The notes beneath the pieces are model-generated. The model ran no database searches, was not told the DNA's origin, and worked only from the letters and a program-made list of their open reading frames with translations. Shown piece by piece: positions 1 to 49,700 of a stretch of DNA of 64,000 bases. The stretch's first letter is position 1, and every line of letters starts with the position of its first letter. Position numbers and translations under genes: made by a program. The DNA lies in the NCBI RefSeq assembly GCF_949987535.1, contig NC_080074.1, positions 41,585,641-41,649,640 on the forward strand, given 5' to 3'. Origin of the DNA: Balaenoptera acutorostrata. Its lineage: Eukaryota; Chordata; Mammalia; Artiodactyla; Balaenopteridae.

Positions 1-1429
1 CCTTTCCCATTTACTTCATGACATTCCTTCTTGAATGAGAAAGAAATCCAAGATTAAACATCTTCATTCACTGCTTTGTCTTTTGAGCCTTTTTTGTCCC
101 TTTAATCACTAAAACATACTTTAAAAAATTGGGAACAGACAGTTAACTTTGTGATTCAATTTTTTTCATGAATTGTAACACAGACTTTTCTATGCCCCTT
201 TTCCTTAAAGAAAACATCAAATTGAAGTTCCCCTGGGATATCTTCCTATCTTTTAACTTTAGGCTGACAAATCGGGCTGCATCTTACTGATGTTGACAAT
301 GGTACACTACATACGCTGGTGAGCAATGAGGAAGTACAGCACATCCTGGGTGTCCTCCCCATAAACCCCCAGCCACCCTTGAGCTGAGACCAGTGACACT
401 GCCTGCTGACCACGTCTAGTCACGCTCCATCCAGGGGACAGAACTCTGAGTCATTCTTTAAATTTCAGTGTCCTGTACTCTACCATGGGAAAGAGAACAT
501 GTATAAGGCCAAGCAGGTAAACACCATCAGAGGAAGTTTTCAAATAGGATTTGTGTTATTTTTACTTAGTTTTTTTTTCTTCTTCTTCTTCTACTTTAGA
601 CACTGAGTATGAATGACTCAACACAAAGCGTGCAGACCACTAATGCGTTCTTACATGGACTCATTTGTGGGACTATTCAAGACTTCCTCTGAAAGGCCAA
701 CAGGGAACAAAACTGGAGAACAGACGTGAGAATCAGGTTTCCAGTGAGGCAGGAAACAAGTAGGAAGGACAAAGAACAGTATCTTAAAAATTTCTCATTA
801 GTTCTGCAGAGACTAGCCAGCTCTCATCAAACCAATTTCCTCTTCCTCCTGGGCACAAAGATGAACGTTGGTTCCTGGCCTCGCTGTCAGTGAGATGGGG
901 CTGCAGCAGTTCTGGATAAGGAAATGTGGGTAGAAGTCATAACCCCCACTTCCAGACCTGGTACATATGAACTATTCTTACACCATCGTTCTTCCTCTCT
1001 TTTGTCATCTGTCTGTTGAAATCAACACCCAGGGTGACGTCGGCAGTCTGGTTGGATAATAGCAGAGTTACCTACCATCCATCTTAGTCCCCAACTGATG
1101 ATCAGAAACACCAGGAGGGGTTTTATGTGAAGGAAGAATTAACTTCTTTGTGTTAAGTTACTGAGATTTTGAGATTTCTCTGTTACAGAAGTTAGTTGCC
1201 TAATACCGCTAGAGTCCTGGAAAATACAAAATGCTCCTGACTATAGGTATACTGGTAAAATACACTACTATAAGCAGAACTCAGTTTTTTAAAAAATGAC
1301 TTTCAAAAACCTCTTATCTAAGAATGTATATACATACACACGTACATACATATGTACACATATTACTATTCATTTATTGAATAAATGAGCAACTATAAAA
1401 ATATAAAAACACTAACATGTGAGTATACG

Positions 1430-1525
1430 TGGGCCGGTACTATGTCTATATTGTTCACCACTGAACACACAGTGCCTAGAATGTTGCTTGGCACATAGGA
1501 AGAATGCAACAAATATTTTTGAACA
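1430..1525 (+). mobile_element. L2 3'-end fragment
   Basis: The words TATTGTTCACCACTGAACAC, CAGTGCCTAGAATGTTGCTT and GGCACATAGGAAGAATGCAA followed by CAAATATTTTTGAACA match the conserved 3' end of L2. Confidence 0.75.
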
Positions 1526-1709
1526 CATACATACATACATACATAATTCAGCTCACGATCTCTCTTCTCTATTCTTTTCCCAGGATTCTTCACACCTCTC
1601 ACAATTTCTACTCTCTCCTATATAAGATCATATCCTATGATTATTAGGTTGTTAATCATTAGATTAATAATTATTACTGATAAAAAATGTAATTGTGATG
1701 ATGATGATA

Positions 1710-1900
1710 ATTTACTGAACACATATTGTGACAGGCTTTGTGCTAAGTACAATTTTGTGGGTTATTTTCTTCATTCCTAACAATTTCATGAAGATTTTGC
1801 AATTTTATCCTTATTACAGAAAGGAATTTGGATACGTTAAGCTCCCAAGGAGTTGGCAGATAGCAAATGGTAGAAAGAGACTTAATTTAGACACTCCAAC
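1710..1900 (-). repeat. MIR SINE
   Basis: Reverse MIR order: TTACTGAACACATATTGTGA, CAGGCTTTGTGCTAAGTACA, a decayed TTTACAGA-like core and CTCCCAAGGAGTTGGCAGAT. Old and diverged. Confidence 0.65.
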
Positions 1901-2244
1901 TCCAGTGGCAACTCAACTGCTTCCTACCCTAATTAACAATAACCTGTCTCCCTAGTTCTAGACCTTTAGAAATTCAGAGAAGGTGGCCACCAGGAATGAA
2001 CTGGTGGGTATCAGGATATCAAAGCAGAGCTGTTAAGTCTGATCAAAAGCTCTTTTGTACTTTTTAAGGTCTTGTTCCCATTCAAACAAGCTTTTCATGA
2101 CTGAAGTCAGGAAAGGTTACTTGTACAGAAGAACGATTTCTGAGACCAGTCCTCTCAGATGCATAAGGACAAAGAAGAGGTAAAAACCTGGACTCACATG
2201 GAAAATATAGATAAAGTTAATTGGGAAGCTTTTCCTTTTATTAT

Positions 2245-2450
2245 AGAGCCTAGGTTTTGAAGTCAGATGTATCTGAGTCCTAATGCAAGTCTAGTCTTTG
2301 CTTAGCTTTAATACAGTTGGGGCCAAGTGGGATCAGTTTCCTTATCTGTAAAACAGGTATAAAAATACTTACCTCATAAGGGTTGGTGGTGGGGAGGGGG
2401 TTAAATGAATTAATGTCCTTAAAGCACTTAAAAACAGTGAAGTAGGTAAC
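2245..2450 (+). repeat. MIR SINE
   Basis: CTAGGTTTTGAAGTCAGATG, CAGTTTCCTTATCTGTAAAA and CTTACCTCATAAGGGTTGGT are in MIR consensus order. Confidence 0.85.
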
Positions 2451-3158
2451 AAATTTTCAACGTGTCAACTACAGTTATTAATAGAAGTAGTGTTAATAGA
2501 ATATCCTATTTCCTCCTTTGGGGCTCATCCTCAGATTGAACTAAATATTCCAAATTGCCAAAATGCTTTTGAGAGTTTTATAATCACAACTCTTTTTTGG
2601 AATGTAATAGAAAACAGAAGGAAAACAGGGGTTAACATAAAAAAAATCTGATGCCATCAAAAGAGAATAAATAGACTGAAATTTTCAAATCTAAAATGAT
2701 TTTTCTCTCAAGTTAGATCGGAGGTGTATAATTGAAGAATGCTAGAAAATCTGTGTTCCTCAAAGCAGTTACAGGCAGCTTTGACAAGCCAAAAAAAAAA
2801 ATCAAGCAGCTCAGCAAAACTCCTCCTGTCTCCTTCCCACGTCCTTCACTACAAAATCTGTTATTTAAGAAGCATGTGAAAATCACTCTGAAAAACACAG
2901 GGCACATGTGTTTCTCTGAACTAACAACAGAAAAAGTTAATGGGTTATAATGAAAAGACTTTATAGAAATTTTGGACATTTTACTGTTCATGAATAATTA
3001 GAAGAGAAGGCTGAAGTACCCCCAAATAACCTTAGATTTCTCACATTTTCTAATGACTTTATTAACTAACCTATACCCCCTTCCTACAGCTACTGCATTG
3101 TAGTAGACCACCTCTCTTTACACAATTCTGTTAGAGACTGGGGCCCAGGGCCACTCAC

Positions 3159-3542
3159 CCACTGTTGATGTCATCAGCCCTGAGACTTTTCCCAAGGATA
3201 TCACCATCACTCATATATCCACCAACATCGACTTCAGAAGACATGTCCAGGTCACTGCTTGCTTTCTCACTCATGTCAATCTGTGACATGTTTCCCAGCC
3301 GAGAGACAGCAGCTCGACGGAGAGGCGTAGTGTACATGAACCTTGAGGGGTCTGTGTGGATGAAACGACTGGTACTGCTGCGAGGGTAGCCAGCACCCAG
3401 GGAGGGAGCATCTCCAGCCTGAAGTCTAGGACATGCCTGGCCCAACCTCCAGGTCATGGGAGTGGGTCGACCTGTCAAGTTGGGTATGGTCCTGCCATTC
3501 ACTTCTGTCGTCACAGTGCTGTCAAATGTTGTCTCCAGGGTG
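3159..3542 (-). CDS. NAV3: NAV3 internal exon (TLETTFDST...DDINS), 384 nt
   Basis: The acceptor TTTTATTTGACAG precedes C, which completes the split Ser; then 127 codons and GG at the donor GG|GTGAGT. The protein begins TLETTFDSTVTTEVNGRTIP, includes the family block WRLGQACPRLQAGDAPSLG (shared, as recalled, with NAV1 and NAV2), a region RFIHTDPSRFMYTTPLRR, and ends in an acidic segment with YMSDGDILGKSLRADDINS. The next exon should start by completing Gly and continue YMTDGG, but I could not find it between 1 and 3158, so it probably lies outside the window. The frame stays open upstream of the acceptor (through MHSGSMAPGEPEYSDF), but that part is intronic because the phase and family match begin at 3542. 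Confidence 0.95.
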
Positions 3543-4516
3543 CTGTCAAATAAAATAGAGAAATCACTATATTCTGGTTCACCTGGGGCCATGGACCCAG
3601 AATGCATGAAGACAGGAACACCTACAGTTGAGAGTCATTTCTTAGAAGTATGTCCATTTTCATGAAAGTCAAATTATACATTCATTTTGAGATTCTAAAC
3701 ACCTCTGCAGGTATCAAAATGTAGGAAGGGGCATTCATCACAGATTGTTTGCTTTCAAAGGAAACGCCATCATTACATTTTAGAGAAAACAAAATATTGT
3801 TTCACATTCTCAACCAACCCTTAATTTAACCCATTGTAGCCTTCCCAGAACTTTTCTGGAAGTTAACTACAATTATGTTTGAAAGACTCTCTACCACCTC
3901 TCCTCAGATGCATTTTAATTACAACTTCCACCATTGTTATTTGAGGCAGGCGTGAAAATCCACTGAGCAGTGATGGTGGTAGTTTTAGTAGCTAATTCAG
4001 TTTAAATGGGAAATTATATTGAAGAAGAGATGGATAGGAGAAAAACATCACTGGGTAGGGCTGAGAAGTCACCAGTTGACTGTCATATAAAATTTAAGTG
4101 GGGCTTCCCTGGTGGTGCAGTGGTTGAGAATCTGCCTGCCAATGCAGGGCACACGGGTTCGAGCCCTGGTCTGGGAAGATCCCACATGCCGCGGAGCAAC
4201 TAGGCCTGTGCGCCACAACTACTGAGCCTGCGCATCTGGAGCCTGTCCTCTGCAACAAGAGAGGCCGCGATAATGAGAGGCCCGCGCACCGCGATGAAGA
4301 GTGGCCCCCACTTGCCGCAACTAGAGAAAGCCCTCACACAGAAAAGAAGACCCAACACAGCCATAAATAAATAAATAAATAAAAATTAAAAAAAAAAATT
4401 TAAGTGAGAAAATAGTAAAGGAAAACTAAAATTCCGTGTTTATCATTATAAGAAGTTAAATGCTTAATTGTAATTTTTTCTTTATTGGCCCCAAAATAGG
4501 CAGAATTGAAGAAGAC
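3543..4516 (-). other. NAV3: NAV3 intron of 974 bp containing a SINE
   Basis: This is the shortest intron in the window, from the weak donor GTCTTC (4516) to acceptor TTTGACAG (3543). About a third of it is the CHR SINE at 4101-4396, inserted antisense to the gene roughly 110 nt downstream of the donor. Pyrimidine-rich sequence (ATTTCTCTATTTTATTTGACAG) forms the acceptor. Confidence 0.9.
4101..4396 (+). mobile_element. CHR-type tRNA-derived SINE, full length
   Basis: The head GGGCTTCCCTGGTGGTGCAG resembles a tRNA A-box region, the B-box GGGTTCGAGCCC lies at 4155-4166, and the tail is TAAATAAATAAATAAAAATT followed by As. It is flanked by a perfect 10-bp target duplication AATTTAAGTG at 4091-4100 and 4397-4406. 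This SINE family is characteristic of cetaceans and their close relatives. It sits antisense in the short 974-bp NAV3 intron. Confidence 0.95.
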
Positions 4517-4625
4517 CTGTGACTTATCTGGGTCCCACGAAGACTGGACATAGTCTCTTCTAAATTCTGCCTCAAATCTGCTATGTTTTTAACTGTTCTC
4601 ATTCTTCTTGTTTCAGGGTCTTCAC
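4517..4625 (-). CDS. NAV3: NAV3 internal exon (EDPETRR...NLEETMSSLRG), 109 nt
   Basis: The acceptor TTTTCTAG is followed by two bases completing Gly, then 35 codons from EDPETRRMRTVKNIADLRQN through LEETMSSLRGTQISH, then AG of a Ser codon. The LRQNLEETMSSLRG block is shared by NAV1, NAV2 and NAV3 (from memory) and looks helical. The exon can be joined by two upstream exons with the same phase, 20631 (long form) and 10736 (proposed short form), making it the merge point of the two forms. The donor is AG|GTCTTC, which departs from GTRAGT at +3, +4 and +5, so this is a weak 5' splice site. It is supported by the protein continuing correctly into the next exon (ISH-S-TLETT). Confidence 0.94.
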
Positions 4626-9800: not shown

Positions 9801-10735
9801 GGTCTGGTTTAATTCTTTCGAATTTAATGAGTCCTATATGAAGTCCTTTGTGGAAATACACACTGACATAAAAGAGGATGTGGTCAATGGTTTAATGCTT
9901 ATGACTTTTTGAAGAAGGCACCATATGATATAAATATGCTACAGTAGAGCGCTGAACTTAGATATAACAATTAAAACGTATACAGTTTAGCTATTCAGGC
10001 AGGTGGCAAAACTGAAGAATTACTTCAGACATTGTCCTATCTAATTAATTAAAGATTATTATCAGAAGTTACTCCTAAGAATCATGTCATCAAACAGGCC
10101 TACTTTGTAAAGTATCAGAACAGTTCACACTCATCTACATAGTAATTTAAATAGTTATAATGTACACACTCAGAAGTATTTTTTGCCAAACACTTCAAAA
10201 AAAAGTGAGTAAAGCTGTTAGAAGAGGCCTCTGCATTTCCAGCATAACTAGAAAGTATGGTACTTGTCACCGAGGTACAAACAAGGCCATCTATTCAGAC
10301 ACCACTGAGGCAGCAGAAGAAACTTGACTATACCAAAAATTTACCCACGAGGTCCTTCATTCTTCATTCCAAATCTGTGGTGAGGTCACCTTGAGGGAAG
10401 TTGAATAAACAGGCCCCATTAATGACTAAGTAAAAAACAAATTTGGAGTTTTAAAATGTTAACACTTATTTATGGATGTCTAGAGTGTACTAGACTCCAG
10501 GCCAATAATGCCCAGGGCGGGTGGTTGGTATTTACTTTCTCCATATACACTTTACAACGAGTTCTCACAGTTCAGCTTTCTGAAGACAATCATTTCAAGA
10601 GACAAGGAATTTAAAATTGTTTTGAGTAACTACGGTTTCGAAAACATCAGTCAGAAGAACAGAAGCTATTTGGCTTAGGCAAAGAGGCAGCTTCTGAAAA
10701 TTCCATCCTCCTTTTTAGGAGCAGACCCGACTTAC

Positions 10736-11252
10736 CTAACAAGTCAGTGTAAAGGGCCTGTTCCAGGTCGCCCAGCATTGTCAGGATCACATCCTCGTCC
10801 AGAAGAGCTGTGCCTTCCCGCAGGCAGCTTTCTCCCTCCTCTTCGGCCCAGCCCCTGCCGGTGCTGCCAGGCCTGGGGGACACATTTTCATCTTCGGACC
10901 GGCTGTCTTCATCACTCTCACCTTCCAAGAATTTTCTGGAAGACCACTCTTCTAAGCTCTCCGTGCCTGCACGGTTGGCGGGCAGCAGGTTCCAGGCCCC
11001 CGGGCCACTGGTGTGGTACAGGGACTGCACGGACCTTGACAAGAATCTAGACAGCGAGCGCCTCTCTGCGTAGCTGGATTCCCTCTGGCTGGCCTTGGCG
11101 GCATTTCCAAACCAGTTGGAAATGCGCACAGTGGGTCGCCTCTCCCCCTCACTGGTGAGGGACAGATTGGTCAGAGACTTTTGCTTCTGAAGGCCAGCTC
11201 CCTTTGGCCTTACTTTGCTCTGAAACACAGAGAGTTCAGCCGGCCGCTGCAT
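10736..11252 (-). CDS. NAV3: Alternative first coding exon of NAV3, NAV1-like N-terminus, 172 codons
   Basis: An open frame on the minus strand starts at the ATG at 11252 and runs 172 codons to LL plus one G at a consensus donor, TTAG|GTAAGT. That phase is exactly what the 4625 exon needs (G + GT = Gly, then EDPETRR). An in-frame TGA lies upstream at 11369-11367 and no other ATG lies between, which fixes the start; position -3 is G, a fair Kozak context. The protein begins MQRPAELSVFQSK, then KQKSLTNLSLTSE (about residues 23-35), a basic RRSLSRFLSRSVQS (64-77), an acidic ESDEDSRSEDE (112-122) and LDEDVILTMLGDLEQALY (151-168). NAV1, as recalled, opens similarly: AELKVF, KQKSLTNLSF, and a LGDLEQLL motif directly before the NLEETMSSLRG region. 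I infer an alternative promoter making a short, CH-domain-less, NAV1-like NAV3. Transcript support cannot be checked here. Confidence 0.85.
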
Positions 11253-11486
11253 GACTCTCCTTACCGGCTTCTTCTCTTTCAATTGGACTTCATATATTGT
11301 CTTTTCTGCACTGAGATGCCAACTGGCCCTTTTGGTTTTAATTAACACTTGCACTTCAATAAAAGCTCAGGCAAGGCTCAAACATCCACGTTAGATCCTA
11401 GAGCTATAGTACAATCAATGAGTTGCCCACAATTCAGCTTGCCATGTCATGCCCCTCATCAGCAGTACTTACAAACATTTTGCTTG

Positions 11487-11586
11487 TATATATCGGAAGC
11501 AGAAAAGAGTTCATCAAAGACACTGCTCCAGCTGAAAAGTAGCACAGGAAGCCAACTACGTTTTCCAGTCTTTATCCAATCACGTG
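11487..11586 (-). promoter_or_regulatory. Candidate promoter of the alternative first exon (CCAAT/E-box and TATA-like)
   Basis: Upstream of the alternative ATG, the 11 bases at 11576-11586 read CCAATCACGTG on the plus strand, a CCAAT box abutting a palindromic CACGTG E-box. About 85 bp nearer the gene, 11487-11493 reads TATATAT (minus strand GATATATACAAG), which could place a start site near 11460 and give a roughly 210-nt 5' leader. The order and spacing are promoter-like, but each motif alone is common; there is no CpG island. The start site is inference only. Confidence 0.3.
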
Positions 11587-12063
11587 TCTCAGCAGGGCGA
11601 TGGGTCCACATTTCCCTCTATCGCTTCTGTATTCCCAAACGCGAGGTAGTGAAGCACCAGCGATGTCTCTGGCTTTGCTTTTTTTCCCTGCCTCTCACCA
11701 GCCCTTCACGGATCTATCTGGGTCTGCAGCCCTTTACTCTAGAGGAACTGACAAGGTGCAGCAATGTAGAGCCTCCACATCAGAGCCCCGTAAGAGCAGA
11801 TTAAGCACTGAAGCCAGCCCTGCACGCGCCTCTCGTGTTTTAGTATTCCACCTGCATTCTCAGATCTATGGCTCTTCCTTGCTGCAGTGGCTGTTGCTGG
11901 CTGCCATGGCAGCAAACATCCTGCTAAATTAAAACAGAGGCACAGAAGCGGCTGTCCAGCCTAGCATGCCACAGGTTTCAAAGCCAAGCCTGAATGAGAT
12001 GCTACACGATTAACCCTATGCATGTTTAAATCACTCTCGGCTACCCCGCCTCAGATACGGAGA

Positions 12064-20630: not shown

Positions 20631-20746
20631 CGGATATCTCCTCTAGGCACTGCTTAGCTGTCTTACTGTATGATAAATCCATCTTAGTAGGACTGGTACA
20701 GGAATCGGCAGATGGTAAAGAGGTACCTTCATTTTCTGAATGTGCT
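20631..20746 (-). CDS. NAV3: NAV3 internal exon (AHSENEG...EEIS), 116 nt
   Basis: This coding exon is bounded by acceptor AATTTCAG and a strong donor G|GTAAGT. The first base completes the Arg codon left open by the 35419 exon. Then come 38 codons beginning AHSENEGTSLPSADSCTSPT, continuing through KMDLSYSKTAKQCLEEIS, and one base of a Gly codon completed by the exon at 4625. It matches NAV3 from memory with only a small change near the start. The stretch KTAKQCLEEIS could be helical. In the proposed short isoform from 11252 this exon would be skipped altogether, because transcription would start downstream of it. Confidence 0.95.
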
Positions 20747-35218: not shown

Positions 35219-35418
35219 AGGAGATGAGGACTAACAGATTGGAGGATATGGGAGGCTTTCTTTTAAAAATTTGAATTCTAGGCCTCTCTCTCCAGCATGA
35301 AACACTGTTCCCACAATGACTATGTGAAATAGGACTCCGCAACCTTCCTTAGTATGTATACTCTGAGAATGCAGACCTGTCAGTGTTTACGGCTGCGGAC
35401 CCACGGAGCCCGCCTTAC

Positions 35419-36445
35419 CTATAAATGAACGGAGCCACGGTGGCAGTATTTGGGTGGCTGTGTTGCTGCTGCTGCGGGAGCTGGACGGCACCATTTCCCA
35501 CGCTCTGCGCACTGCCTTGCGCCGCTGACCCAGCACAGGAACCCGCCGCAGAAGCGTGGCTAGCTTCCCTTCCTTCCAAAGGAGCAGGGCAGTTGGATGT
35601 GCTTGCTTTCTCAGTCGTTACGGGCTTAGGGAAGGACTGGGAAGGGCTTCCCTTGGTAGTCCTGAATTTTTCAGACTCTTTGTTTGTTGAGCCTCCCGGT
35701 GAAACAGTCTGCTTTGCTGTTGGCACCTTTGAGCCCGGTTTTGGAATCCCACTGGAAGAGGGGATTAAGCTTTCCTTCTTGGCTGCTGTCGTCTTGCTGC
35801 CCTTTGGGATTAAGCTTGCAATTTTAGAAGTCTTTTTTGGAGCCGTCTCCGCCACCTGATCTTTCTCGTCCTTGACTGGTTTTTCAGTGCAAACTTTATT
35901 CTTGTCCCTGTTCTTTTCCTCTTTTTCCTTTGGCTGTAGCAAAGACTTTTTATTGCTGAGATTTTTGCTTCCAGCTTTTGGAGGGGCTAATTTCGGTGAC
36001 ACTTTGGGGCTGCTATTGGTTGAGCCGCCACTATTCAGACCACTGTTAAAGCCTTCCATTTCACCAGATTCAGATAAGGCATCGTCCTCTTTCCCACCTT
36101 CACTGGGTCCTGAACTGGGAGGCTGCAGGGGGCGTAAAGCAGTCCGGGTATTGACCAGCTTGAATTTCTCAAGCATGGATTTCTGTCCCGAGGGAGCTGC
36201 TTTGCCCCCGTCTGAGGCAGGGGGCTTCAGTCTGTCTGCAGATGGTGTGGGAGAGGTGGCTGGGCTCGACTGCTTCACGGTCAGCATGGTGGAGGTGGCG
36301 CTGTGCTTGGCATTCATGGACTTGCTGCGCCACGGCTTGCTGGTGCTCGGAGAAGGGATGGCAGAGGCCGGGGGCTGCCCAGCGGTGCCGGGGGGCTGCG
36401 TGCTACCACTCACACCTGAAGATGTTTGAGGTCCTTTGGAGGAAT
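35419..36445 (-). CDS. NAV3: NAV3 large internal exon, 1027 nt, Ser/Pro/Lys-rich with SxIP motifs
   Basis: This is the largest NAV3 exon here. The acceptor ACGTCCAG is followed by two bases completing Asp, then 341 codons, then two bases of Arg at the donor AG|GTAAGG. The product is an intrinsically disordered, basic, Ser/Pro/Lys-rich region of neuron navigator 3, a protein that binds microtubules and tracks their plus ends. Visible segments (exon residues): KPWRSKSMN at about 36; KSMLEKFKLVNTRTALRP near 88-104; an acidic SESGEMEGFNSGLNSGG stretch near 124-140; a Lys/Glu-rich run near 160-190 (PKEKEEKNRDKNK); and near the end LPQQQQHSHP. Four S-x-I-P sequences are present at exon residues 27-30, 210-213, 225-228 and 231-234, the form recognised by EB1-family plus-end proteins. 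The exon is GC-richer than its introns. Long plus-strand frames across it are antisense shadows. Confidence 0.97.
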
Positions 36446-36974
36446 CTGGACGTGGTTAAGAAGAAACATTGTTAAAAAGGCTGATTAGTTTTTGATCACT
36501 TATGTCACACCACTGAGTATTTCTAACTATAGGCACAAGGAAGTTTCTTTCCTCTGAACTGGAAACGGACATGCTATGTGGCATCAATCACTTCTGTAAT
36601 GTGGTGGTTTTTGTACCATATATCAAACATTCAGTGTCTGAGGGACAGTGATTTTGGGGGAAAAAAAACCACAACACTTTTTTTCCCTTCTAAAATTATT
36701 CTTAGCCAAATGAATTTTGCTGGTCACAGAGGTCTAAAGATGAATAAAACACTCTCCCTCCCCTAAGCAATTCTCTGTATTCTTCCAGCTACTACTGTAG
36801 CCCCTAGCAGTGAATGGATACTCCACCTTGCCCTATAAAAATAATGAATACTGAGAAATTGCTTTAACCTACAGGGAGCCTAGCTTATTCTTATCTGATT
36901 AAATATGCTTTTGAATCATAATTTAGCTTTTTGTTAATATTGTTTTTATTTGTACAAAATAAATATTGAAAGGG

Positions 36975-44620: not shown

Positions 44621-46655
44621 TAACTCCACATTAATAGAAAATGCCATATAGCATGTAAAACAAATTCCAGAAGGCTGTATTATATAATACAATTTATGCT
44701 TTAATTATTATTGACAGTTTGCAGACATTTAATGCCAACATTTGATATATAATATTATAAATATTTGTGAATGTGAGATCATACACTTTAAATGTTTTGG
44801 AATTTTACTTTGTTGGAATTAAAAGTAATGGCTAATTCACCATGAAAACTTTTGCTCTACCTAAGGAAACCTGCTTATGGTCAAAAACCTCGTAATGTAT
44901 GTTATCTGTCTCCACCTTGTGGTTATTATAAATATTGCTACTTTCTAATTTTGCACTACTTCCTAGACATACATAAGAGAGGCTGAATGGCTACGGAAAG
45001 ATATGAGTACTTGGCTACCTCTGGATTTTTACTTTTAAACACCAGCAATACAAAAAGTATTTCACATGATCAAAAAATGCATTATGATATCAAAGCGTTG
45101 GGTCATCTAAAGCATTTCTAGGTTTCTTTGCCAACGTTATTAGTCATTTTTTGCAAAACTCTTATACAACTGTAGTATCACGTAGCTAAAATCAGATACT
45201 TGAGCAGTCCACTCAGCATATCTTTATGTCTAAACATGTTTATTTTCCCTTAGAATTTCATAGCACATATAGGCCTTTGTATGATGCTTTCTAGGAAAGT
45301 CACAAAATGAGGGAGATGTTTTTCTGATAAGAAATTCTTGTCCCCTTTCTCTCCAGGAGAAGTGTAAGTCTTCAGTAACATTTCTTAGGTCCTCAATTCA
45401 AAGGTTTTATTCTTTATTTTAAAGACAAAATCCTAACTTCCAAACACATACTATTGTCTTCTTTTTTCCATTCAACTCAAGAACTGGGGATGTTACAGGG
45501 ATCAAGATACACTGCTTTGCTTACAGGGATTTACGGTCTGCCCAATTTTGTTTTAATGGGTAGGAAATTTTCAAGGAAGTGTATAATTCATAGATCACCC
45601 CTGTCAATTCATGTCTGAGTAAGAGAAGTCTAATCAGATCATCCATATGAAACAATTGGAAATGATCTAATCTGAGCCAAAAAGTTTCTACCTGGTTCAA
45701 TTAGTCAAACCAAATTTGCCAGCTGTTCTACTAAGTGTATTTGTCACTTTTGAATTTCATGTCTTGTTGCATGGAGACTTAAATACTACACAGAGAAGTT
45801 AAAGTTTTATTGATTAGAAAATACTACCTCACAATCCCACAACGTGCCCTAGTCCCTCACAGGGTCACACTGCTCCCAACAGCAGAGGTTCTTGATTTTC
45901 TCATGGTTTAGATGTAAATTACACATCCTCCCGTTTGGATGCAGACTCCACAGGGATATGCATCAAGCCAGCACCTCTTTAAATACGCACTGTGCACATT
46001 AGAGAGAACTGTGCATCATACAGTAGTTAATATATAATCTGCCATTAACACACACTTCCACTGTGTCCTTTCTTCCTGATCAATGTGTGATTGGATATTT
46101 CTATCATACACTCGTTCAAGAAAATAAAACAAACATGAATAATTTGTCTCTTATAGGAAAAACTAAGGTCATAATATTTATCTGTCCTGCTGCTTTCAAA
46201 GACTAAATACCCTTCATAATTATGTCTTAAATTTTAATGCTCCAACCTTAACTTCCTCAAACACGTATGGCACTTAATGTTAACTAAAACCAAGGATTTG
46301 AAAACATTTCATATAGGTTTGTGATTTCAAGATAAGTGTTCACAGAACATGAGAAAACAAAAGAAAATGCTATTTACATGCATCCAGGAGGAACTTTTTT
46401 TTGAGAAACAGATTTTATACTTGGGGATAATCACTAACCACTTTAATATAAATGACTATATTTCCTTAAAGTGTTCTTCAGATAGGAAAGGTCCTGAAGA
46501 AAGCTGGAATTCAAGAGGAGGCACTTAGACAATATAAGAAAGTCCACTGATAACATTTCCATTCCAAACACTGCTTAAATACTAGATTTAGCATGTAATT
46601 TATGAGGCTCATATGTTACACTTGTGCCTTAATGATGTAACGGGCGAACTCTTAC

Positions 46656-46795
46656 CTTTTTCACTGCCATTTGCATAATTTGGAGGCTTGTTTTTATCAA
46701 TGCTGTTAAAGCTCTGACTTCTCCTATTTAAATTGGAGGCTCCCTGGACCTTGCTGCTGCTGCCTGCAGCCGGCACCCTAGAGGGACCTGGAAGC
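46656..46795 (-). CDS. NAV3: NAV3 internal exon (LPGPSRVP...NGSEK), 140 nt
   Basis: This coding exon has an acceptor (ATTTCAG) and a good donor (G|GTAAGAG). Its first base completes the Arg codon from the 49952 exon. It then encodes 46 residues, starting LPGPSRVPAAGSSSKVQGAS and continuing with a NRRSQSFNSIDKNKPPNYAN segment, and ends with one base of an Asp codon finished by the next exon at 36445. The sequence is nearly identical to human NAV3 as I recall it. The composition is Ser/Asn/Lys-rich and low complexity, with no folded domain. The RRSQSF motif looks like a basophilic-kinase or 14-3-3-type site, but that is inference. The reading frame can be followed beyond both splice sites for a few codons; those flanks are intronic. 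Confidence 0.95.
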
Positions 46796-49700
46796 CTGAA
46801 ATAGTACAAGAAAAATTACATCATTATTGCACATTACAAAAAGATAGGGAACAGGAGGTTCTGAGCAGGGAAGGGTTAATGGGAAAATCATAATTTACGA
46901 CGTTCAGCAGAAAATGTTGGTTTAAGTGACAAATAGCTAAACACAAGGTCTGAAAATCTTCAGAAAAATCTTGGTTCATATGATATAATTTGCCTCCAAA
47001 GTATATTAATAATGCAGGACAATTAGAAATAAAGTAATTTTAACTAAAAAAGTCATGCCTATACGCACCTGATGAATAAAACTTTGATTTAAATGTAACA
47101 ACTACATGAAAAGCAAGGGAAATAATACTACTTAACTAGAATCTATTATATTCTCAGGGTATTAACCAGCTGCCTGCAGTTGTTGTTAAGTTGTTCTTTT
47201 CAATATACGGGACATTTGTTTTTATCTTAGGTGGCTGTATCTTAAATGAACTTGTACATTAATAACAAGAAGAATAAAGTTACATACAAATTGCAAATAG
47301 CAAATGCTTACTGAGTATCTAAGCTAGTTAATTACTCAAAAACACGGTGTGGAGACCAAGGTCATGAGTTTGTTCATATTTGACTGATCTGTCTCACAAA
47401 AAAACTTTCACTCTCTTGCCAAAAGTAAGCACCTAGGCTCTAGCTGGTTGTCTCACAAGTGTGGCCAACTGATCACACAGGTCATGCGGCAAGGATGCAG
47501 GTCTCAGAAGAAGAAAATCTATGCTAGTAGAATGACAATTTAAAATACACCTACAGTGATAGTAGCTTTAGCTGCTCGTTGTGTATGAAGGACAAGACAT
47601 GAGGAAATGTAGGTAGACTGTATTAGAATTAGGGGAAGTTTGATGGGAGGTAATCATCTGCAGTTATTTTATTTGAACTATAATTAAACATCACTTTGGA
47701 TCATTTATTTCACTGTTTAAACAGTTCCCATATTAAAATTTCAGGTATCAATTATTTCAAGAATTGTGCGTAAAATATGCAATTACTATATTTTATTTTA
47801 TACTAATACTAATGTATATTGTGTATGTATAATAAACTCAATCTGCATAAATGAAAAACTAGAAATTAAGAATTAATATTGGCATCTTAAGACATATTTA
47901 AAAACATGATATTAAGGGTCGCCAGCATCTTTGCTAGCATTTGCTGCCACCATGTGAATGCCACTGTGTACTGCTCTAATAAGTTCTATTTTAAAAGAAA
48001 AATAACAAAAACAATCCATAACTTATAAATGTAGCAATTAATTTTTTCTTGTCATACAAAATATTCAAAATAAAAGAATGTTTACATCTATTATATTGGT
48101 ACCCGATATATCACAATTTCACAATCAGTTGCTACAATATTCAAATTTTAACTCACCTTATTATACTACTTGACACATTATTTCCATAGATTATCAGGAA
48201 ATCAAACTCTTAAATGTATACTATAAATATTTTATAATAGTAACAGGTATTGCGAAATGGAATGAACATCAGGAAAACACACACGCCAGCTTAAGACCAG
48301 AAATGTTGATATCTTGGAATAGTTAATAGTTTCAAAATGTTGACTGTATTTTGGAGTTTAAATACATATGGCTAATAAATAGTTCCTTCAGCTATTTTGC
48401 TAATTAGAGGTTGTGTCATGCACAAGATTGGAATCTTTTCCAAATGACTCCAGCATTTAACTTTTACTCAAATGGATCTACAGGGTTTGTAAGACTAGCA
48501 CAATAACCACAGACACCAGCAATTTTGAGTACCAGTGATTGCACTATGTAGAAGGAACTCAACTAATTAATTTGGCCAAATGTCCCATCATAATAAATCT
48601 GAGAACTAGTACTGTAGACACAGCCATAGGCTTAGAAAGTTCATTCCAAACTCACATTTATAAACAAATTTTGTCACAAAATTTGCCCTACTTGCAATGA
48701 AACTTGACCTGTTTCTAGAAAGCAATTAAAATGCATTTTGATCTTGACTGTGACCCATGAAGCCAAGTGATCTTTAGTTCTCAGAAGAACAAATTAAAAC
48801 AAATTAAAAAATCCATTTGCTCTTCTCATTACCCTAATTTGACAGTCAGCCAGAGCTCCAGATCATTCATCAAAGTAATAAAAAGAGAAATGAGAATGAA
48901 GCCAGAAAAAGAGATGTTCTATTAAATCAAAGAAGTACTTAAAATATACTTTATATTCATTAAGTCTTAGAAGTAGTAATAAAAAATGCTTACTGAACAT
49001 GGCAGGTCACTGTTCTTTGCGCATCCTAGTTTATATCATTTCTTTTGATTTTTAATTAAATACCCTTTTAATTTGCCTTTCCAGAATCAGTTTAATTACT
49101 ATGGAAATGAACATAACTTAGGAAACCAAGGCAAGGGGGAAAGCACATAACCTCAAGTCAAGGCATCATAAGTAGTTCTTGTGGTCAAACACTGCATAAT
49201 ATGATTCATTATTAGGGTAGTGACTAGTAAACCACCACTGAGATACTTCCCCAGTAAGTGAGATGGCACATATAACCACATAATAATCAGGGGGGCAAAA
49301 CACATTCGCTGTGGCTTCACTTAGCTGTAGCATCATGCCTCCAGTAACTTAACATTAAAAAAAATCACTTTCCACACATTTTTCTATACCAGTATTTTCC
49401 AAACAGTATATAATGCACTGTCATTTATTATAACAGATTGCCTTTAAAATACATATGTCATAAAGAAGCAAAAATTTAAATGATTAAAGATAAAAGAATG
49501 GTTCAGGCTGACCTGGTGCTAACTTTCTCACAAAAATCTGCCAATGTTTCTCACTTCTGCTTCAAAATGTGCAGTAGTTAATGCATACCCATTTCAAAAA
49601 GCAATTACAATCTTGTTTTCCTTCCAGATTTGTGGCCTGGAAAGAATGGGGTCTTCAAAGTAATTTTTTTCCTTGACTTTCTCTAAGCCTAGAACCTAGA

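Follow-up and report, generated by a model that had tools for sequence, protein, structure and literature searches.

A NAV1-like alternative first exon within an intron of the Balaenoptera acutorostrata NAV3 gene

Introduction

The stretch of Balaenoptera acutorostrata DNA analysed here (64,000 nucleotides of contig NC_080074.1, positions 41,585,641 to 41,649,640; the window hereafter) carries exons of NAV3 on its minus strand, and one of the introns between them holds a long open frame with a NAV1-like product. Does this frame begin a NAV3 transcript of its own, and if so, how did NAV3 come to possess a NAV1-like beginning? Our answer to the first question is that it is almost certainly the first coding exon of a short NAV3 isoform lacking the calponin homology (CH) domain, expressed from an internal promoter and spliced in phase 1 to the exon at 4625. 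This reading draws on the exon itself, its donor and phase, its conservation, its homology to NAV1, its annotation and one transcript-length assembly. The short isoform is already known, and the interesting remainder is the ancestry of the two promoters.

Results

The frame and its immediate surroundings comprise the following elements.

10736..11252, minus strand: NAV1-like alternative NAV3 first exon, coding part (from its open frame, donor and phase; its ATG is the start in 87 of 92 long homologues)
10730..10735, minus strand: splice donor GTAAGT (from the sequence; 53 of 55 frames have K or E immediately past the boundary)
11253..11700, minus strand: presumed 5′ UTR and promoter side, approximate extent (in-frame TGA at 11369; GC-richer stretch)

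The ATG-started frame (11252 to 10736) is 517 nt long, 172 codons and one further base, and ends in phase 1. The nearest in-frame stop upstream is the TGA at 11369, and the frame read without splicing runs to a stop at 10649. The donor reads ACTTGTTAG/GTAAGTCGG, with TTAG/GTAAGT matching the consensus, and the acceptor at 4625, at a genomic distance of 6.1 kb, reads TTTTCTAG/GTGAA. Splicing the two yields the stop-free junction ...DLLGEDPETRRMRTVKNIADLRQNLEETMSSLRGTQISH, which continues in phase 1 from 10736 to 4625 into GEDPETRRMRTVKNIADLRQNLEETMSSLRGTQISH; the exon joined in this way is the NAV3-type common exon (RRMRTVKNIADLRQ...TQISHS), with phase 1 on both sides. The frame, the upstream stop, the donor and the matching phase, all proposed in a first-pass annotation made from the letters alone, are thus all seen in the sequence. 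In a simulation from local dinucleotides, a given 172-codon frame was stop-free in 5 of 20,000 trials. Across the window, the string AGGTAAGT is found at three places on the minus strand. The exon had no Pfam match at E ≤ 1, and no Rfam family reached its gathering score anywhere in the window.

The exon lies in a stretch of raised GC content (0.45–0.59 in 500-base windows between 10501 and 12250, 0.29–0.40 just outside), with CpG observed/expected ratios of about 0.35–0.48 and no CpG island. A putative transcription start of its own would be placed just upstream of the exon. Eight upstream ATGs with short frames of 3 to 50 codons (11293–11611, minus strand) fall within the 450 bases preceding the main ATG, whose own context is middling (AGAGTC/ATGC); they could offer a means of regulating short-form translation. 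On the opposite strand, a 128-codon ATG frame (11418–11804, plus strand) occupies the same GC-richer stretch just upstream of the exon and is probably due to chance.

Further NAV3 exons, all on the minus strand, were located on both sides.

4517..4625, minus strand: common NAV3 exon, the splice partner of both first parts (EDPETRRMRTVKNIADLRQNLEETMSSLRGTQISH; 89 of 92 homologues have the junction)
3158..3544, minus strand: next common NAV3 exon, matched range, not exact ends (tblastn with blue whale NAV3 isoform X5, 100% identity)
20631..20746, minus strand: long-form exon competing for the 4625 acceptor (ends ...AKQCLEEIS, phase 1; ends placed by eye from the sequence)
35418..36446, minus strand: long-form-only upstream NAV3 exon or exons, matched range (tblastn with a CH-containing cat-family NAV3 model, 90% identity)
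46648..46797, minus strand: long-form-only upstream NAV3 exon, matched range (same model, 92% identity)

The first exon is flanked by the NAV3 exons at 20746–20631 and 4625 and therefore sits, as had been proposed, within a 16-kb NAV3 intron. The upstream neighbour ends CCG/GTAAGT in the same phase as the first exon.

The first protein search was confined to sequences no longer than about 300 residues, which left full-length forms out of its reach. Among 159 candidates of that size, 107 matched the first exon at E ≤ 10; P0002 and P0003 are translations of the window itself, and six carry names (koala, loggerhead turtle, a gecko and three fishes). In rows P0002–P0057, the window's own two included, the boundary motif is present in 55 of 56 sequences. 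Of these, 53 have K or E as the next residue (the exceptions are P0019 and P0033), as a GGTAAG or GGTGAG donor would give; past the boundary, the sequences diverge. The P0019 frame (200 aa, on a contig of 7977 bases) continues past the boundary, where the usual K or E is absent, with an unrelated tail, DLLEFAGDPLQ..., that matches the window at chance level only (E 17); this frame is perhaps spliced to another exon.

The search was repeated with a 1500-residue carrier in which only the first exon was scored, and 92 of 874 candidates matched it at E ≤ 10, the weakest at 1.5e-4. The best of these long homologues, 98% identical in the exon, carries the name "neuron navigator 3 isoform X5 [Balaenoptera musculus]"; human X28/X29, a 1842-aa human entry (P0146), narwhal and bottlenose dolphin are also present, and the taxa range over mammals, turtles, birds, squamates and fish. 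The first exon is joined to the NAV3-type common exon in all but three (P0139, P0192 and P0200), and the first-exon ATG is the protein start in all but five (P0155, P0162, P0192, P0196 and P0198). Most of the names look like automated predictions. The blue whale X5, human X28/X29 and 1842-aa human isoforms share the exon, the junction and the downstream NAV3 sequence with the window, and no difference was found other than a few residues in the exon. The suggestion that this isoform might be missing from annotations hence fails: 92 long proteins carry the exon, named blue whale and human NAV3 isoforms among them.

One homologue, P0142, is a 1693-aa protein from a 6663-nt contig with source "lgn", which we take to denote assembled public reads. 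It spans the junction between the first and the common exon and is identical to human NAV3 P0146 over the first 400 and last 50 residues. Since 6.1 kb already separates the two exons in the window, this contig is not genomic and is either spliced RNA or a processed copy. A profile search aimed at NAV1 (7986 candidates) did not find NAV1 among the best 120 of 178 matches; the same 120 included 15 new rows (P0202–P0216), of which P0202, P0203, P0206 and P0207 continue into the NAV3-type common exon and the other 11 are frames resembling the fish NAV3 exon.

By Pfam (E ≤ 0.001), the database short forms P0110 and P0146 contain the ubiquitin-like domain, the AAA domain and the NAV1-type lid and no CH domain, and a CH match is found in the CH-containing model P0162; that the locus yields a form without this domain, another of the initial proposals, is thus borne out by database entries. 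The first exon evolves faster than the remaining protein: human and blue whale share 83.6% of aligned residues within the exon and 97.5% outside it, and sea bream and blue whale share 47.5% and 72.9%, respectively. Conservation within the exon concentrates in its last 28 residues (92.9% in human, 77.8% in sea bream) and in the AELSV and KSLTN motifs. A check of conservation had been called for, and the start, the frame and the last 28 residues prove to be kept from sea bream to human.

A structure model of the pangolin form P0203, built from 17 sequences, has low confidence over most of its length (mean pLDDT 52.1, pTM 0.28). Residues 151–200 have ten-residue pLDDT means of 79 to 95 and include a helix at 153–172, the end of the first exon, followed by a helix at 176–202 from the common exon; the two helices are predicted to be adjacent in sequence. 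A weaker helix is modelled at 360–375. Blue whale NAV3 had no match at E ≤ 0.01 among the solved structures searched.

A search of the 2.77-Gb genome with the first exon gave two matches at E ≤ 0.001, namely the exon itself and C1:197385194 (33% identity, E 2.4e-5). Given its close agreement with human NAV1, we take the latter to be the NAV1 first coding exon. It ends AGTGCTGG/GTGAGT in phase 1, and a common exon (DPESQRKRTVQNVLDLRQNLEETMSSLRG) follows 44 kb downstream on the same strand (C1:197429502). The NAV1 and NAV3 first exons have motifs and motif order in common, the NAV1 exon ending ...LGDLEQ.L.....L; both carry a phase 1 donor before homologous common exons, G/GTGAGT in NAV1, and they are 28% identical in pairwise alignment. 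They differ in composition, the NAV1 exon lying in a GC-rich region (GC 0.69, CpG observed/expected 0.72) and the NAV3 exon having values of 0.50 and 0.44. NAV1 is not known to have any other start.

In profile alignment with hhalign, the first exon matched the NAV1 locus of the same genome with 99.4% probability (E 1.5e-21, score 137.5), against a maximum score of 19.5 across 100 shuffles, and the match persisted at 96% (E 3.5e-9) when the three motifs named in the first-pass annotation were masked. Further controls came from a run against a human NAV1 sequence, in which 60 shuffles scored at most 19.5, the reversed sequence reached 0.2% probability, and a long-form exon and six other NAV3 stretches, set against the same profile, reached at most 0.24%. 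Together, the genome match and the alignment scores support, at the sequence level, homology of the NAV3 alternative first exon to the NAV1 first exon, and the description of this stretch as NAV1-like holds. Two more copies of the NAV1-type common exon (L007, C1:163754557; L008, C1:162554958) lie about 34–35 Mb from C1:197429502; they are alike over the roughly 100 residues compared and represent either a duplication or an assembly artefact.

A third common-exon locus, C15:38061236, is presumably NAV2. We scanned ten stretches, about 95 kb at and upstream of C15:38061236, which include about 500 bases of N and contain an upstream coding exon (38072037–38073035). The exon profile gave nothing above 8.0 bits (E 0.54) among the 3418 frames of these 95 kb. 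The NAV1 locus, itself outside the profile, served as control and reached 90.8 bits (E 1.2e-27 among 190 frames). The exon could possibly have been missed within the N bases. The shorter transcript of NAV2 differs from that of NAV3 in having no detected homologue of the NAV3 first exon in the 95 kb scanned at this presumed NAV2 locus.

Three other explanations of the frame deserve consideration. It would be very surprising if the stretch were a cassette exon internal to the long form, included between 20631 and 4625, although five of the 92 long homologues do combine long-form sequence with the first exon, in four cases (P0198 being the exception) sequence of the CH region, and in-phase AG sites are available upstream (11366 and 11354, each after a stretch with 11 pyrimidines of 17, and an AG two bases before the ATG). 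The AG beside the ATG, however, is preceded mostly by purines (3 of 17 bases are pyrimidines), and the exon's ATG is the very start of the other 87 proteins. The point of entry into the exon differs among the five mixed models, P0155, P0196 and P0198 holding the whole of it and P0162 and P0192 only part, as would be expected of merged predictions, and we read them as such. Judged by the upstream AG sites in the sequence, the cassette reading is disfavoured.

That a separate NAV1-like gene or gene fragment lies inside NAV3 seems exceedingly improbable, and much the same low probability attaches to a chance open frame or an unexpressed relic. The former idea could appeal to koala P0033 and wolf-eel P0101, which carry the NAV3 short-form exon under the name "neuron navigator 1-like", and to the lack of a continuation into NAV3 in P0033. 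P0101, however, runs directly into the NAV3-type exon EDPETRRMRTVKN, and the name given to both is probably a misannotation; 89 of the 92 long homologues continue into NAV3, which refutes a separate gene for those species. The common exon in the window is, moreover, of the NAV3 type, whereas the one taken to be of the NAV1 type (DPESQRKRTVQNVLDLRQ) is at C1:197429502, and the locus read as NAV1 is on a different contig of the genome. In favour of a relic, the exon diverges faster than the remaining protein; the maintenance of the start, the frame and the last 28 residues across the distance from sea bream to human, and the transcript-length contig P0142, nevertheless speak against both chance and decay. 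A first coding exon of the short NAV3 form is accordingly the reading adopted below.

Discussion

We propose that a promoter inside the long gene, its existence and position in this species being putative, would produce a transcript starting with the first exon, which would be spliced in phase 1 to 4625, the exon that the long form reaches from 20631. A NAV1-like head would thereby be substituted for the CH domain and a long linker. The resulting protein would be without the N-terminal long-form part, which spans about 610 residues in model P0162 and contains the CH domain, and would begin with a mostly disordered NAV1-like segment leading to a conserved helix that adjoins the common-exon helix; the ubiquitin-like domain, the AAA+ ATPase and the lid would follow the common exon unchanged. 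Promoter choice might then set the ratio of CH-containing to CH-less NAV3, and the short form may do NAV1-like microtubule work without CH-domain contacts.

The available part of the review PMC9877351, citing Maes et al., describes NAV2 and NAV3 as the closer pair. On that basis the simplest history, drawn for NAV1 and NAV2 from one genome, is that the exon predates the split between NAV1 and NAV3 and was lost or became unrecognisable in NAV2. Ancestral retention, as suggested at the outset, likewise accounts most simply for the occurrence of the exon in NAV1 and, from fish to mammals, in NAV3. We consider it somewhat more probable than its converse that an ancestral vertebrate NAV already possessed separate promoters for a long form with the CH domain and a short form without it, that NAV1 lost the upstream half and lives from the internal promoter, that NAV3 runs both, and that NAV2 lost the short-form exon. 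With the same modest preference, as part of this joint reading, the absence of a CH domain from NAV1 would reflect loss of the whole upstream half and not piecemeal loss.

Human NAV3 presumably runs in the plus direction at its chr12 locus. A published human NAV3 promoter, for ENST00000552895, is placed at chr12:78511404-78513618 (GRCh37), and the available part of the source puts this start 178 kb from rs1842126, a risk variant at a locus called intronic to NAV3. The transcript is named in no other paper of the openly accessible literature searched. Given the direction of the gene and the intronic locus, its start would be internal, like that of the short form, and from its position we infer that ENST00000552895 begins with the first exon. 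We counted this promoter, along with a GTEx remark, in favour of the short-form reading. A 2002 paper by Coy et al. reportedly states in its title that POMFIL1 (NAV3) "encodes different protein isoforms" and may well describe the short one. In the parts available of each source, the short isoform is not described in the 2023 review PMC9877351, nor the first exon in PMC7005187, PMC4364947, PMC11231287, PMC7430845, PMC10580830 or PMC12162837, and NAV3 is not named in PMC3855657.

The finding bears on the history of the NAV family and on the reading of clinical variants upstream of the first exon. Studies of NAV3 that take the long transcript as their reference may be looking at only a portion of the gene. 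In the available part of PMC11754320, NAV3 variants are named on NM_001024383.2 and include a homozygous change of the exon-1 donor, c.243+1G>T; if the short form starts at the first exon, this change leaves it intact. If the two-promoter ancestry is true, truncating variants upstream of the first exon would more generally spare the short form, which may be the main NAV3 product in most tissues.
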